Source: an uncultured Gammaproteobacteria bacterium
GTDB taxonomy: Bacteria > Pseudomonadota > Gammaproteobacteria > UBA9214
Assembly: GCA_905479705.1 (NCBI GenBank)
Contig: CAJQNP010000285.1
Coordinates: 1 to 32,400 of the forward strand
Direction: 5' to 3'
DNA: 32,400 nucleotides
Of the stretch, positions 6,331 through 32,400 are shown one piece after another. The position numbers were made by a program, and so were the translations under genes. How positions within the stretch are numbered: position 1 is the first letter of the stretch; each line of letters begins with the position of its first letter. Below the pieces are notes generated by a model. That model had not been told where the DNA came from, ran no database searches, and saw only the letters and a list, made by a program, of their open reading frames with translations.

Positions 6331-6552
6331 ATGTTTTTAAAAAACAAGATCAACGATGACCTGGTTGAAGTCCTGACGCTGAAAGACCTGTTTGACCCGT
6401 TTTGCGAAAACCTGATCGGGCGCTACCAGCACGGCGAGGAAATGCAGGACCCGGAGAAATTCAGCAAGTCCGACCTGGTCTTTCTCTCCGGGGAGTCGCT
6501 ACCCCGCTGCTGGATGGATGCCCATTACCGCGACAAGGAACTGCAGCGCTGA
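6331..6552 (+). CDS. Small conserved-looking protein, function unknown
   Basis: A 73-residue acidic protein (MFLKNKINDDLVEVLTLKD...) with no signal peptide or membrane segment. It has a clear ribosome site (AAGGAGAG about 7 bases before ATG) and a TATAAT upstream, which argue for a real gene. The middle part FDPFCENLIGRYQHGEEMQDP and the end LPRCWMDAHYRD look like a compact domain, but I cannot name it. It stands alone, divergent from the DUF2384-like gene. Confidence 0.7.
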   Translation: MFLKNKINDDLVEVLTLKDLFDPFCENLIGRYQHGEEMQDPEKFSKSDLVFLSGESLPRCWMDAHYRDKELQR

Positions 6553-8373: not shown

Positions 8374-9744
8374 TTACTTGATAACCTGGTAACAGGGCAC
8401 GTACTCCTTGCCCGGCAGTTTCATACGGTGCTGCTCGACAAAGGACGCCAGCAGCGCATCCATCGGCTCCATGATGCTGGTATCACCGCGAATTTCGAAA
8501 TGTCCATGCTTCTCGATGGCGCGAATACCCTCGTCCTTGACGTTGCCGGCAACCACGCCGGAGAAGGCCCTGCGCAGGTTGGCCGCGAGCACGTGCCTGT
8601 CCTGGTCCCTGTGCAGGGCCAGGTTGCGCATGTTCTCGTGAGTGGGTTCGAACGGCCTCTGGAATTCCGGGTCAATCGTCAACAGCCAGTTAAAGTAATA
8701 GGCGTCATCATGCTCGGTTCGATAATCGCGCACCTGTCGCAGCCCGGCGTGCATCTCGCGTGACACCCGGTCCGGGTCGTCGATAATGATCTTGTAGCGC
8801 TGCTGCACCTCGATACCCAGGGTGTCGATAATGAACTGGTTAATCTGCTTGAAGTAATCCTCGGTACTCTTTGGCCCGGTCAGGATCAACGGAAACGGAA
8901 TACTGCTGTTATCCGGATGCAGCAGGATACCCAGGATATAAAGAATCTCCTCGGCGGTCCCGGCGCCACCGGGGAACACCACGATGCCGTGACCGACACG
9001 CACGAAGGCCTCCAGCCGCTTCTCGATGTCCGGCATGATGACCAGGTCATTCACGATCGGGTTGGGTGATTCAGCCGCGATAATGCCGGGCTCGGTGATA
9101 CCGAGATACTGTCCGCTGGAGATGCGCTGCTTGGCATGACCGATGGTCGCACCCTTCATCGGCCCTTTCATGGCACCCGGGCCACAACCGGTACATATAT
9201 CCTCACCACGCAGTCCAAGCCGGTAGCCAACTTCCTTGGTGTAGTCATACTCCTCGCGCGATATGGAGTGTCCGCCCCAGCACACCACCAGGTTAGGATT
9301 CGTCGATGGCCGCAAAATACCGGCATTGCGCAGGATATGGAACACGGCGTTGGTGACACCGCTGGAGTTATCCAGGTTGAACTCCGGGTTGTTTTCAATC
9401 TCGTCACTGACATAGATGACATCACGCAACACGGCGAACAGGTGCTCGTTGATGCCCTTGATCATCTTGCCGTCGACAAAGGCATGCGCCGGTGCGCCGA
9501 CGACTTCCAGCTTGATGCCGCGCTCTTTCTGGATCACCCGAATTTCGAAGGACTTGTAGCGTTCCAGCAGTTCCTTGCCATCGTCCAGCTGGCTGCCGCT
9601 GTTCAGGACCGCCAGCGAACAGTTCCGAAACAGCCGGTACAGCCCCCCCTGGCTGGTATCGAGCAGCTTGTTGACTTCAGCCTTTGAGAGCACCTCCATG
9701 CCACCGGATGGTGAGATGCGTGCATCGACGACTTCATATTCCAT
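8374..9744 (-). CDS. ppnN: PpnN, pyrimidine/purine 5'-monophosphate nucleosidase
   Basis: PpnN (YgdH) hydrolyses nucleoside 5'-monophosphates to free base and ribose 5-phosphate and is allosterically controlled by (p)ppGpp in E. coli. The 456-residue product matches the 454-residue E. coli protein over its full length: N-terminal regulatory region (LYRLFRNCSLAVLNSGS, RGIKLEV), the nucleotide-binding LOG core (VVCWGGHSI, CTGCGPGAMKGPMKGA, PGGAGTAEE near residue 257), and a C-terminal region ending QHRMKLPGKEYVPCY. The conserved glycine-rich PGGxGTxxE motif is intact, so activity is expected. It lies upstream of the GNAT gene and downstream of the exonuclease gene, all minus strand. Confidence 0.96.
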   Translation of the reverse strand: MEYEVVDARISPSGGMEVLSKAEVNKLLDTSQGGLYRLFRNCSLAVLNSGSQLDDGKELLERYKSFEIRVIQKERGIKLEVVGAPAHAFVDGKMIKGINEHLFAVLRDVIYVSDEIENNPEFNLDNSSGVTNAVFHILRNAGILRPSTNPNLVVCWGGHSISREEYDYTKEVGYRLGLRGEDICTGCGPGAMKGPMKGATIGHAKQRISSGQYLGITEPGIIAAESPNPIVNDLVIMPDIEKRLEAFVRVGHGIVVFPGGAGTAEEILYILGILLHPDNSSIPFPLILTGPKSTEDYFKQINQFIIDTLGIEVQQRYKIIIDDPDRVSREMHAGLRQVRDYRTEHDDAYYFNWLLTIDPEFQRPFEPTHENMRNLALHRDQDRHVLAANLRRAFSGVVAGNVKDEGIRAIEKHGHFEIRGDTSIMEPMDALLASFVEQHRMKLPGKEYVPCYQVIK

Positions 9745-29856: not shown

Positions 29857-30603
29857 TCAGACACGCACCTTCTCAAGGCCATCACTCATCAGTGGCTTGA
29901 GGGTTGTCAGCAACGACTTGAACAGCAGCCGGTTGTCGCGTTCTTCCGCGGCAAGCAACTCCTTCATGTGCTGGCGCCGGGTCGGCATGGCAAAGCAGGC
30001 CGGGCAGGAATCGGCGATGACCGGCAGAGCGTTATCCTGCGCAAAATCCCGCGTCTGGCGTTCACGCACATACACCAGCGGACGAATGACGCGCAGGTCT
30101 CCGTCATCATTGCGGTAGTGGGCCTTCATGGTCTGCAGGCGACCACCGTGAAAGGCCGACATGAGAAAACTCTCGGCCAGGTCATCGAGATGCTGCGCCA
30201 GGGCGATGACGTTATAACCCTGTTCGCGGGCAGTCTGGTAGATCAAGCCGCGCTTCAGACGCGAGCAAAAACTGCAGTAGGACTTCCGCCCCATGTGCGC
30301 CTGCGCCATCTCCATGATCGGCTTGCGAACGTAGTGGTAATCGACACCCAGTGATTTTAGGTAGGGAATCAGCCCGGAGGGATCGAAATCACCGGCCATC
30401 GGATCAATGGTGACTGCCCCCAGCTGGAAAGTAATCGGTGCACGTTGCTGCAGGTTATGCAGGATGTGCAACAGTGACAGGGAGTCCTTGCCGCCCGACA
30501 GCCCCAGCAGCAGCCGGTCTCCATCACGGATCATGCCGAAATCGGCAACGGCGCGCCCGGTCAGCCTTGCAAGGGGTTTTGAGGGTGTCCTGAATCCAGT
30601 CAT
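29857..30603 (-). CDS. TtcA-family PP-loop ATPase, short form
   Basis: A 248-residue PP-loop protein related to TtcA, the iron-sulfur enzyme that makes 2-thiocytidine at tRNA position 32. The PP-loop is SGGKDS (36-41). Cysteine pairs CSFC (110-113) and CPAC (200-203) correspond to the cluster-binding cysteines of E. coli TtcA. Other shared blocks are RGLIYQTAREQGYNVIALAQHLDDLAESFLM and VIRPLVYVRE. It is about 60 residues shorter at the C-terminus than E. coli TtcA, so it may be a paralogue with another substrate. The listed TTG start is unlikely; the ATG giving MTGFRTPSKPLARL fits the family. It diverges from the fasciclin gene across the TGTACA-rich region. Confidence 0.82.
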   Translation of the reverse strand: MTGFRTPSKPLARLTGRAVADFGMIRDGDRLLLGLSGGKDSLSLLHILHNLQQRAPITFQLGAVTIDPMAGDFDPSGLIPYLKSLGVDYHYVRKPIMEMAQAHMGRKSYCSFCSRLKRGLIYQTAREQGYNVIALAQHLDDLAESFLMSAFHGGRLQTMKAHYRNDDGDLRVIRPLVYVRERQTRDFAQDNALPVIADSCPACFAMPTRRQHMKELLAAEERDNRLLFKSLLTTLKPLMSDGLEKVRV

Positions 30604-30667
30604 GTCGTGGATGATGCCAGAAAGCCATGGTTGCGATGACTGCCACGGCACGTTTAGCGCCTGTGTT

Positions 30668-30853
30668 TGTACAGGAGTAGCCTTCTCCTGGCGACCTTGA
30701 ACACATTTTGTACAACTATACAAAGTTACATCTCATTGAATTATCTGATATTTATATATCTCTGTACGATTTCAGGTAATTTTTTACTTGAAATGTACAA
30801 TTTTTGTATTAATATGATCTCTAAACAGGCAGACGTTGTTCACATCTTGTACA
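30668..30853. promoter_or_regulatory. Cluster of TGTACA boxes in AT-rich divergent region
   Basis: Exact TGTACA at 30668-30673, 30709-30714, 30794-30799 and 30848-30853, plus near copies TATACA at 30717 and TGTACG at 30763. The segment is much more AT-rich than the rest of the window. Spacings between exact boxes are 41, 85 and 54 bases, close to whole helical turns. It lies between the TtcA-like and fasciclin genes and upstream of a MerR-family regulator. Confidence 0.65.
30788..30815 (+). promoter_or_regulatory. Candidate promoter of the fasciclin gene with internal dyad
   Basis: TTGAAA (30788-30793) and TAATAT (30810-30815) with a 16-base spacer. The spacer holds TGTACA and the perfect dyad TACAA-TTT-TTGTA (30796-30808), which is the position bound by MerR-family regulators. 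Transcription would start near 30822, leaving a leader of about 90 bases. Confidence 0.55.
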
Positions 30854-30913
30854 CCTCCTGCATCGAGACAAACATCTGAACCGCTGAAACCAATACGAAT
30901 AGAGGATGTAAAC

Positions 30914-31393
30914 ATGAACACTTACACACTCAACTTCATAAGGATCTATTCACTGATGTTCCTGCTGGCCGTTTTCACGACCAGCGGTTATGCCGGTGAG
31001 CAAGGCCGCAACAACCTGCCCACCATCGCCGATACCACGGATGGTTTTTCCGTGCTGTCCGCCGCCCTGCAGGCAACCGGATTCGATGCAGTGCCTGACG
31101 GCAGGAAGCAGTACACGGAGTTCGCCCCGGCGGACGAGGCCTTTCTGCAATTACTGAAGAACCTGGGCCCGACTCCCGAACAACTGCTGAGCCAGCCTGG
31201 GCTGGTTGCAACCGTTCTGAAGTTTCACGCGACCCGTGGCAACCACTACCCCAACAGAGTGATCGGTGCAGGCGTACTGAAGATGCCGGATCGCAATGTC
31301 AAGGCCATCACTGTCACTGCAGAAGGCGCCATGATCCGGGACGCCGTTATCAAGACAGCTGACCTGCGCGCCATCCTGCCGGGCGCACTTTGA
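30914..31393 (+). CDS. Short exported fasciclin (FAS1) domain protein
   Basis: A 159-residue protein with a signal peptide (IYSLMFLLAVFTTSGYAG) and one FAS1 domain. The H1 box is visible as YTEFAPADEAFLQLL and the helix after it as TPEQLLSQPGLVATVLKFHAT, which corresponds to the H2-box region (usually LLYHVV). The C-terminal strands are partly present (ITVTAEGAMIRDAVIKTADLRA), but the protein stops at ILPGAL before the usual NGVIHVID-VLLP ending, so it is a short form. FAS1 domains mediate adhesion or bind small molecules. AGAGGATG precedes the ATG. It lies upstream of the MerR/B12 regulator gene in the same orientation. Confidence 0.85.
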   Translation: MNTYTLNFIRIYSLMFLLAVFTTSGYAGEQGRNNLPTIADTTDGFSVLSAALQATGFDAVPDGRKQYTEFAPADEAFLQLLKNLGPTPEQLLSQPGLVATVLKFHATRGNHYPNRVIGAGVLKMPDRNVKAITVTAEGAMIRDAVIKTADLRAILPGAL

Positions 31394-31413
31394 TTGCCGG
31401 GATAACCAGGATC

Positions 31414-31473
31414 AGGTCACCCCGAACAACCCTTGTGATTGAGAAAGTTCAGACACCATGACCGGGGTGACCT
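31414..31473. repeat. 11-bp perfect inverted repeat before the regulator gene
   Basis: AGGTCACCCCG (31414-31424) and CGGGGTGACCT (31463-31473) are perfect inverted copies with 38 bases between. The right arm lies just after an in-frame ATG at 31458 and 30 bases before the preferred ATG at 31503. In RNA it could form a leader stem; as DNA it could be a split operator. Confidence 0.7.
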
Positions 31474-31502
31474 TGAATCTGCAGCAGCAAATGAGAACTG
31501 AC

Positions 31503-32400
31503 ATGAATACAAACATAGCGACGATGGAACAGAGGGATCTCTTCCCGATACGCACGGTAGCCTCGAAGACCGGCGTAAACCCGGTTACCCTGCGCGCCTG
31601 GGAACGTCGCTACGGCCTGATAAAACCCGCGCGCACAGCCAAGGGCCATCGTCTCTACAGCCAGCAGGATGTCGATCGCATCAAGCAGACGGTTTCACTG
31701 CTGGATCGCGGCATATCGATCAGCCAGGTCAGCAAAAACCTGGAGACGGAACCACCCGAAAATACACAAACAACCGCGCACAGCTGTGACACCTGGACCG
31801 CGTACCGCGCACAGGCAATCATGGCGATCATCCGTTTCGACGAGAACCAGCTGAACCTGCTTTACAACGAGGCATTGTCACTCTATCCCATCGACGTGGT
31901 AACCGAACACATGTTGCTTCCCCTGCTGGTCAGCCTGGGTGAGCGCTGGGCCAACTCCGACGGCAGCATTGCCGAGGAACATTTCTTCGGGGCCTTCATG
32001 CGCAACAAACTGGGGGCCCGCTTGCACCATCGTCACTGGACACCCACGGGCAAGAAATTGCTGGTGTCATGCATGCCCGGGGAACACCACGAAATAGGCA
32101 CCATGCTGTTTTCACTGGCGGCGCACGATCACGGTTTGAGGATTGTCTACCTGGGTGCTGACATGCCACTGAGGGAGCTGGTGCTGACGGCAAAACGTGC
32201 GGCATGCGACGCCATCGTCATATCGTCGTCGATTGATCCACACGAACACATCCTGGCACACGAGCTGCCAGGGCTCGTTAACAGCTCGCAGTATCCGGTA
32301 ATCATTGGCGGCCAGACCTCGATTAGCTGCGCAGACGCCATCAAGAGAGCGGGTGCACATGCCATCGGTACCAGGATCAGGGAATCCATCAGGCGAATGG
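31503..32400 (+). CDS. LitR/CarH-type MerR regulator with B12-binding photoreceptor domain (3' end outside window)
   Basis: At least 299 residues; the frame is open to the window edge and so is absent from the ORF track. Residues 15-80 form a MerR winged-helix domain (IRTVASKTGVNPVTLRAWERRYGLIKPAR, then HRLYSQQDVDRI). A four-helix cap follows, with the CarH signature W-x9-EH (W149, E159, H160), then a cobalamin-binding Rossmann domain with E-x-H-x-x-G (E194-G199, axial ligand H196) and IIGGQ. Spacing of these residues matches Thermus CarH, in which adenosylcobalamin senses light and controls DNA binding. An in-frame ATG at 31458 could add 15 residues. It follows the fasciclin gene by about 110 bases. 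Confidence 0.92.
   Translation, partial: MNTNIATMEQRDLFPIRTVASKTGVNPVTLRAWERRYGLIKPARTAKGHRLYSQQDVDRIKQTVSLLDRGISISQVSKNLETEPPENTQTTAHSCDTWTAYRAQAIMAIIRFDENQLNLLYNEALSLYPIDVVTEHMLLPLLVSLGERWANSDGSIAEEHFFGAFMRNKLGARLHHRHWTPTGKKLLVSCMPGEHHEIGTMLFSLAAHDHGLRIVYLGADMPLRELVLTAKRAACDAIVISSSIDPHEHILAHELPGLVNSSQYPVIIGGQTSISCADAIKRAGAHAIGTRIRESIRRM

Follow-up and report, generated by a model that had tools for sequence, protein, structure and literature searches.

A putative B12-dependent CarH-type regulator paired with a secreted FAS1 protein in an uncultured gammaproteobacterium

Genes at the right end of contig C285

The window, i.e., the whole 32.4-kb stretch of DNA analyzed here, is the entire contig C285 of a metagenome-assembled genome (MAG) of 2.66 Mb in 325 contigs. 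Its right end carries a TtcA-like PP-loop gene (29857 to 30603, minus strand), a divergent gene for a secreted FAS1 (fasciclin) protein of 159 amino acids (30914 to 31393, plus strand), and a carH/litR-like gene (31503 to 32400, plus strand), which is cut short because the MAG is fragmented and the contig ends here. The four features that the original prediction had named here, namely, a MerR+B12 regulator, a short secreted FAS1 protein, a divergent TtcA-like gene, and four exact TGTACA boxes, were all present in the sequence, and their coordinates were correct. It had also held that what lies beyond position 32400 is not visible; there is indeed nothing to see, but this position is the end of the contig, and no stretch is hidden behind it.

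The regulator comprises a MerR DNA-binding domain, a four-helix bundle, and a B12 Rossmann domain (Pfam MerR_1, 8.9e-18; B12-binding_2, 9.8e-11; B12-binding, 1.8e-6). The RxWERRY motif of the DNA-binding domain is present as RAWERRY, the W-x9-EH of the four-helix bundle, where the B12-binding_2 domain was also found, is intact (WANSDGSIAEEH), and E-x-H-x-x-G reads EHHEIG, in agreement with the intact CarH signature previously claimed for this protein. Its B12 motif, E194-x-H196-x2-G199-x41-S241-x-S243-x25-GG (G269 and G270), has the right spacings for the class I motif D/E-x-H-x2-G/P-x41-SxT/V-x22-27-GG (PMC9304148), with S243 in place of T/V, as in five of five relatives aligned. The closest solved structures were those of Thermus CarH (3whp and 5c8d; E about 1e-34). 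The NCBIfam CarH equivalog NF052513, which covers a narrower set, was the top-scoring model among those listed, but the score of 142.6 bits falls far short of its cut-off of 400; the protein is also truncated by the contig end. In a quick tree, the regulator grouped with CarH proteins of other Gammaproteobacteria and Betaproteobacteria and not with the carH clade of its own family (support, 99), and therefore it was probably acquired or represents a separate lineage.

Positions 31894 to 32400 overlap the end of another contig (G000:C288:6952-7458) over 507 bp with 92% identity, and the likely CarH C-terminus (...RRMDEILHD stop) is found on that contig. The joint is inferred from this sequence match, and C288 may come from another strain; such an overlap could mean that strains are mixed in the MAG or that the assembly broke where the sequence is polymorphic. 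Past the overlap, C288 carries, in this order, the end of carH, an open reading frame (ORF) of 54 to 68 amino acids, another small ORF rich in Cys, and a SulP transporter gene in convergent orientation, and this right-hand continuation holds no photolyase or carotenoid genes. The two small proteins encoded 3' of carH (L003:6668-6829 and 6386-6538), one of 54 amino acids (MSKYEMQIRNT...) and one Cys-rich (PCRGCTRxC...PWR), are also encoded in G021 (L050:8920-9081 and about 9283-9360), 5' of carH-phrB and behind a TGTACA promoter, and the Cys-rich protein was found in L044 and L110 as well.

The FAS1 protein matched Pfam Fasciclin (PF02469) at 1.6e-8 over profile positions 2 to 108 of 123, scoring 35.2 bits against a gathering score of 22, and has a signal-like N-terminal stretch, as expected from its earlier description as short and secreted, and an H1-type motif (YTEFAPADEAF). 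About 11 residues corresponding to the C-terminal NGVIHVIDSV-type strand (NG(V/I)(I/V)H(V/I)ID) are absent in frame, and the reading frame is intact. The last conserved strand is missing, and therefore the function of the protein is uncertain; this loss may have impaired it. An AlphaFold model built from three sequences was uninformative (pLDDT, 34).

Between FAS1 and carH (31414 to 31473, plus strand) lies a perfect 11-nt inverted repeat (AGGTCACCCCG/CGGGGTGACCT) of mild stability (z = -2.0). A role as a terminator was set aside, since the repeat has no T-run; it is possibly an mRNA hairpin, which may stabilize the FAS1 mRNA or damp carH expression. An Rfam search of positions 30500 to 31600 gave no match.

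Boxes, promoter, and predicted targets

The 310-bp region between the TtcA-like and FAS1 genes contains exact, palindromic TGTACA boxes at 30668, 30709, 30794, and 30848. Four such boxes compare with 0.19 expected, and none of 20,000 dinucleotide shuffles reached four. Two pairs with an 11-bp step and at least 11 of 12 matches occur in the region (P about 5e-5), and at a looser threshold the window has four 11-bp-step pairs (30698, 30783, 30794, and 30837), all of them here. We predict three operator arrays on the plus strand, each with 11-bp steps: O1 (TGAACACATTTTGTACA, 30698 to 30714, with TATACA 8 bp further), O2 (TTTACT / TGTACA / TGTATT, 30783 to 30810), and O3 (TGTTCACATCTTGTACA, 30837 to 30853); the TGTACA at 30668 to 30673 has no 11-bp partner and is closest to the TtcA-like gene. 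The middle array overlaps the -35 element and spacer of a sigma70-like promoter predicted for FAS1-carH (TTGAAA-16-TAATAT, 30788 to 30815, plus strand), and O3 lies 3' of it. This is the sole promoter-like site of the region, and its 9/12 match is weak alone (shuffles average 0.9). A promoter of like arrangement, TTGACA-TGTACAATATTTGTATTATTATT, occurs in G021 at L050:8671.

It has been reported that the DNA targets of B12-dependent CarH are 11-bp repeats in tandem, which contain T-n-n-A-C-A and overlap the -35 or -10 element (PMC8156234, PMC9304148), whereas the operator of Pseudomonas class II LitR is TGTACA-N12-TGTACA (PMC9758184). As judged from the sequence, the box layout of the locus is of the B12-dependent CarH kind, unlike that of class II LitR. 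The likeness to Pseudomonas LitR operators that had been suggested thus extends to the hexamer but not to the spacing, N12 there and an 11-bp period here; no 18-bp-step pair was found in the 310-bp region. The only perfect TGTACA-N12-TGTACA of the genome (L004:1501-1524; C124:3496-3519) lies about 20 bp before the ATG of a short ORF.

When the organism's own genome was searched for TGTACA-N5-TGTACA, allowing one mismatch, the only hits were on contig C270, on contig C282 (a pair of overlapping sites), and at this locus (two sites). The first two lie at clusters of stress genes. The repeats on C270 are flanked by genes for CFA synthase and DUF2878 and, in the other direction, by genes for GPx, YbgA/DUF1722, and lipocalin, and on C282 (L153:5940-6674) cupredoxin and SDR genes lie downstream of TATACA/TGTACA/TGTACA/TGTATA repeats. 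The latter repeats are kept in G007, and the cupredoxin/SDR arrangement is conserved in another genus (L051:15836); the cupredoxin is a predicted light-regulated copper protein. In the family's other genomes, carH usually adjoins phrB, with TGTACA-N5-TGTA repeats (also given as TGTACA-N5-TGTACA) upstream. In a census of 15 upstream regions, 6 picked by carH homology alone and the others by pattern search, 11 bp was the sole recurrent spacing of TGTACA-like hexamers (14 of 15). Furthermore, the CFA synthase, GPx, and YbgA genes near the predicted sites match the usual neighbors of carH-phrB in this group. A scan of the own genome found no PF03441 photolyase and no phytoene synthase; a PduO-type adenosyltransferase (PF01923), for making adenosylcobalamin (AdoCbl), is encoded, and an adenosyltransferase of the BtuR/CobO type was looked for there and is absent. 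The best reading of these gene contents is that FAS1-carH belongs to a predicted regulon for photo-oxidative stress that includes neither photolyase nor carotenoid synthesis.

FAS1 genes beside MerR-B12 regulators in other genomes

Few genomes of the class (35 of 370) encode FAS1. Among 31 class FAS1 loci sampled regardless of their regulators, a MerR-B12 gene directly adjoined FAS1, in divergent orientation, at five (L158, L159, L172, L174, and L176), as opposed to far below one expected (binomial P about 4e-8 if a chance rate of 0.3% is assumed). Two of these loci have a CarH with TGTACA repeats, and the other three have a second MerR-B12 lineage in which Q-x-H replaces E-x-H, with TGTCCA/TGTCCT repeats that are 11 bp apart in L174 and L176. 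The boxes of this lineage lie at L174:2074-2090 and L176:2030-2046 (TGTCCA) and at L172:1237-1290 (TGTCCTAGACAA); its wing reads SRRLYS or RRRLYS, as opposed to GHRLYS in CarH, and a change of specificity is possible. At a sixth of the 31 loci, in another gammaproteobacterium (G159, L157:1935-2480), a gene for a BLUF blue-light sensor directly adjoins FAS1.

Outside the 31-locus sample, FAS1 is likewise followed by carH in a genome of the same genus (G014), where repeats precede FAS1 and carH has a promoter region of its own; in Peristeroidobacter agariperforans, two FAS1 genes adjoin carH. In G007 and G063, too, 11-bp repeats lie upstream of FAS1, and the stretch examined contains no CarH. 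The original prediction had proposed comparing the gene order and the TGTACA boxes across relatives; in fact, the pairing of FAS1 with MerR-B12 genes recurs, spanning different families and different regulator lineages, and 11-bp TGTACA pairs precede carH or its predicted targets. In contrast, of about 80 carH loci taken with their flanks from public genomes, only one (P. agariperforans) had FAS1 nearby. The link is therefore recurrent, not general: FAS1 is often with CarH, but CarH is seldom with FAS1. The window FAS1 query matched 2 of 23 family members and missed divergent copies in G014 and G021.

The recurrence of both the pairing and the 11-bp boxes supports the prediction that a CarH-type regulator would control FAS1 and, most likely, itself through the TGTACA boxes. 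Besides, we lean slightly toward a broader view, in which the B12-dependent MerR photoreceptors of Gammaproteobacteria would repeatedly have FAS1 surface proteins as a direct output, so that light read by B12 would switch surface adhesion; the pairing would then have arisen at least twice, in two lineages with different half-sites (TGTACA for CarH and, likewise with an 11-bp step, TGTCCA in G315 and G328). Since G034, G103, and Peristeroidobacter carry the pairing as well, it is accessible to work with cultures or cloned DNA, and the prediction does not hinge on this uncultured genome.

Proposed mechanism and comparison with known systems

We propose, with a probability of about 0.74, that FAS1-carH is a light-induced operon repressed in the dark by AdoCbl-CarH on 11-bp TGTACA repeats, that the exported FAS1 protein acts at the surface, and that the TtcA-like gene is outside the module. 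In the dark, AdoCbl-loaded CarH would bind the repeats O1 to O3 and cover the promoter (30788 to 30815), repressing FAS1 and its own gene; light would break the Co-C bond and release CarH from the DNA, and the two genes, presumably cotranscribed, would be expressed. Binding, photolysis, and induction are proposed here by analogy with work on the CarH family (PMC8156234, PMC9304148). Once exported, FAS1 would serve in adhesion, aggregation, or another photo-oxidative-stress role, as suggested by the alphaproteobacterial FAS1 proteins of RpoE-ChrR systems and the light-induced FAS1 genes of Mycobacterium kansasii, alongside the predicted CarH targets CFA synthase/DUF2878 and the divergent GPx/YbgA (C270) and cupredoxin/SDR (C282). 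Because the pairing of FAS1 with CarH recurs in unrelated Gammaproteobacteria, light probably induces the surface protein here.

Relatives generally have boxes before carH, mostly with phrB rather than FAS1, and so the boxes here might only autoregulate carH, with FAS1 as a decaying passenger inserted between the operator and carH. The lost C-terminal strand and the partial Pfam coverage would fit such decay, but the reading frame is intact, the MerR-B12 pairing recurs across families and regulator lineages, the FAS1 gene of G014 has repeats of its own apart from the carH promoter region, and those of G007 and G063 have them with no CarH in the stretch examined; we regard a passenger as not very likely. 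It is likewise unlikely that the regulator is a B12 gauge (a CarH-like repressor) or a sensor of another signal rather than of light. The sequence alone is no proof of photochemistry, the genome lacks PF03441 photolyase and phytoene synthase, and sediment MAGs are among its relatives; on the other hand, W-x9-EH, the upper-ligand pocket required for photoreceptor activity (PMC9304148), is intact, the predicted CFA synthase, GPx, and YbgA targets match the usual neighbors of carH-phrB, and the BLUF gene adjoins FAS1 in another genome.

The TtcA-like protein, with its PP-loop and CxxC, scored 224.2 bits with the NCBIfam TtcA equivalog NF007972, under the cut-off of 272. Its proposed membership in a light/B12 module did not survive comparison: the box at 30668 and O1 lie between this gene and the FAS1 promoter, closer to TtcA, but bidirectional control by CarH, linking light to tRNA thiolation, is quite improbable, since the orthologues in the genus (75 to 81%) adjoin PdxH where the upstream gene is intact, no TGTACA occurs between them and PdxH in these relatives, and no minus-strand promoter-like site was found in the 310-bp region. 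The TtcA-like gene is most likely a vertically inherited bystander, set aside as a module member on the basis of synteny and its box-free relatives, and a rearrangement in this lineage seems to have brought the FAS1-carH block next to it.

CarH is known chiefly for controlling carotenoids and DNA repair. A direct and recurring link from it to a secreted FAS1 protein would extend B12-based light sensing to a surface or adhesion function, and TGTACA at 11-bp steps would offer a simple regulon signature for spotting light-controlled genes in this group. The locus matches the AdoCbl photoreceptor-repressors of CarH/LitR class I (Thermus, Bacillus megaterium, and Myxococcus) in domain layout, in W-x9-EH and E-x-H-x2-G, in the tandem 11-bp T-n-n-A-C-A repeats over the promoter, and in a layout implying autoregulation (PMC8156234, PMC9304148). 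It differs from them in that FAS1, and not a carotenoid or photolyase gene, comes first after the operator, that the genome is without PF03441 photolyase and phytoene synthase, that the B12 motif has SxS, not SxT/V, and that four well-separated boxes form partial arrays of two to three repeats. With the class II LitR proteins of Pseudomonas (PplR and PmlR2), which are light-responsive MerR family members, it shares the TGTACA half-site (PMC9758184); those lack B12 binding and have an N12 operator and a LOV partner, whereas the present regulator has an intact B12 domain and boxes with an 11-bp step.

The original prediction considered control of a FAS1 protein new. FAS1 is, however, already a light or photo-oxidative target under other regulators: in Rhodobacter, the FAS1 protein RSP_1409 is induced by RpoE-ChrR along with photolyase and CFA-type genes (PMC7074977); in Azospirillum, FAS1 is tied to photo-oxidative stress and flocculation, according to the citation of that work in PMC10949492; and in M. 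kansasii, FAS1 transcripts rise in light (PMC9861118). A search of open-licence papers found nothing linking CarH or MerR-family regulation to bacterial fasciclin. The regulator type, the operator type, and FAS1 as a light or photo-oxidative target are already known, and the part of the novelty claim that stands is FAS1 directly under a B12 photoreceptor, which was not found in that literature. The RpoE-ChrR regulons of Rhodobacter and Azospirillum rely on sigma/anti-sigma control by singlet oxygen, as opposed to the B12 photoreceptor-repressor predicted here, and M. kansasii is an actinobacterium for which the text of PMC9861118 names no CarH, LitR, or MerR regulator. If the proposed operon is real, it would join two separate literatures, that on CarH photoreceptors and that on FAS1 in ChrR-type photo-oxidative stress.
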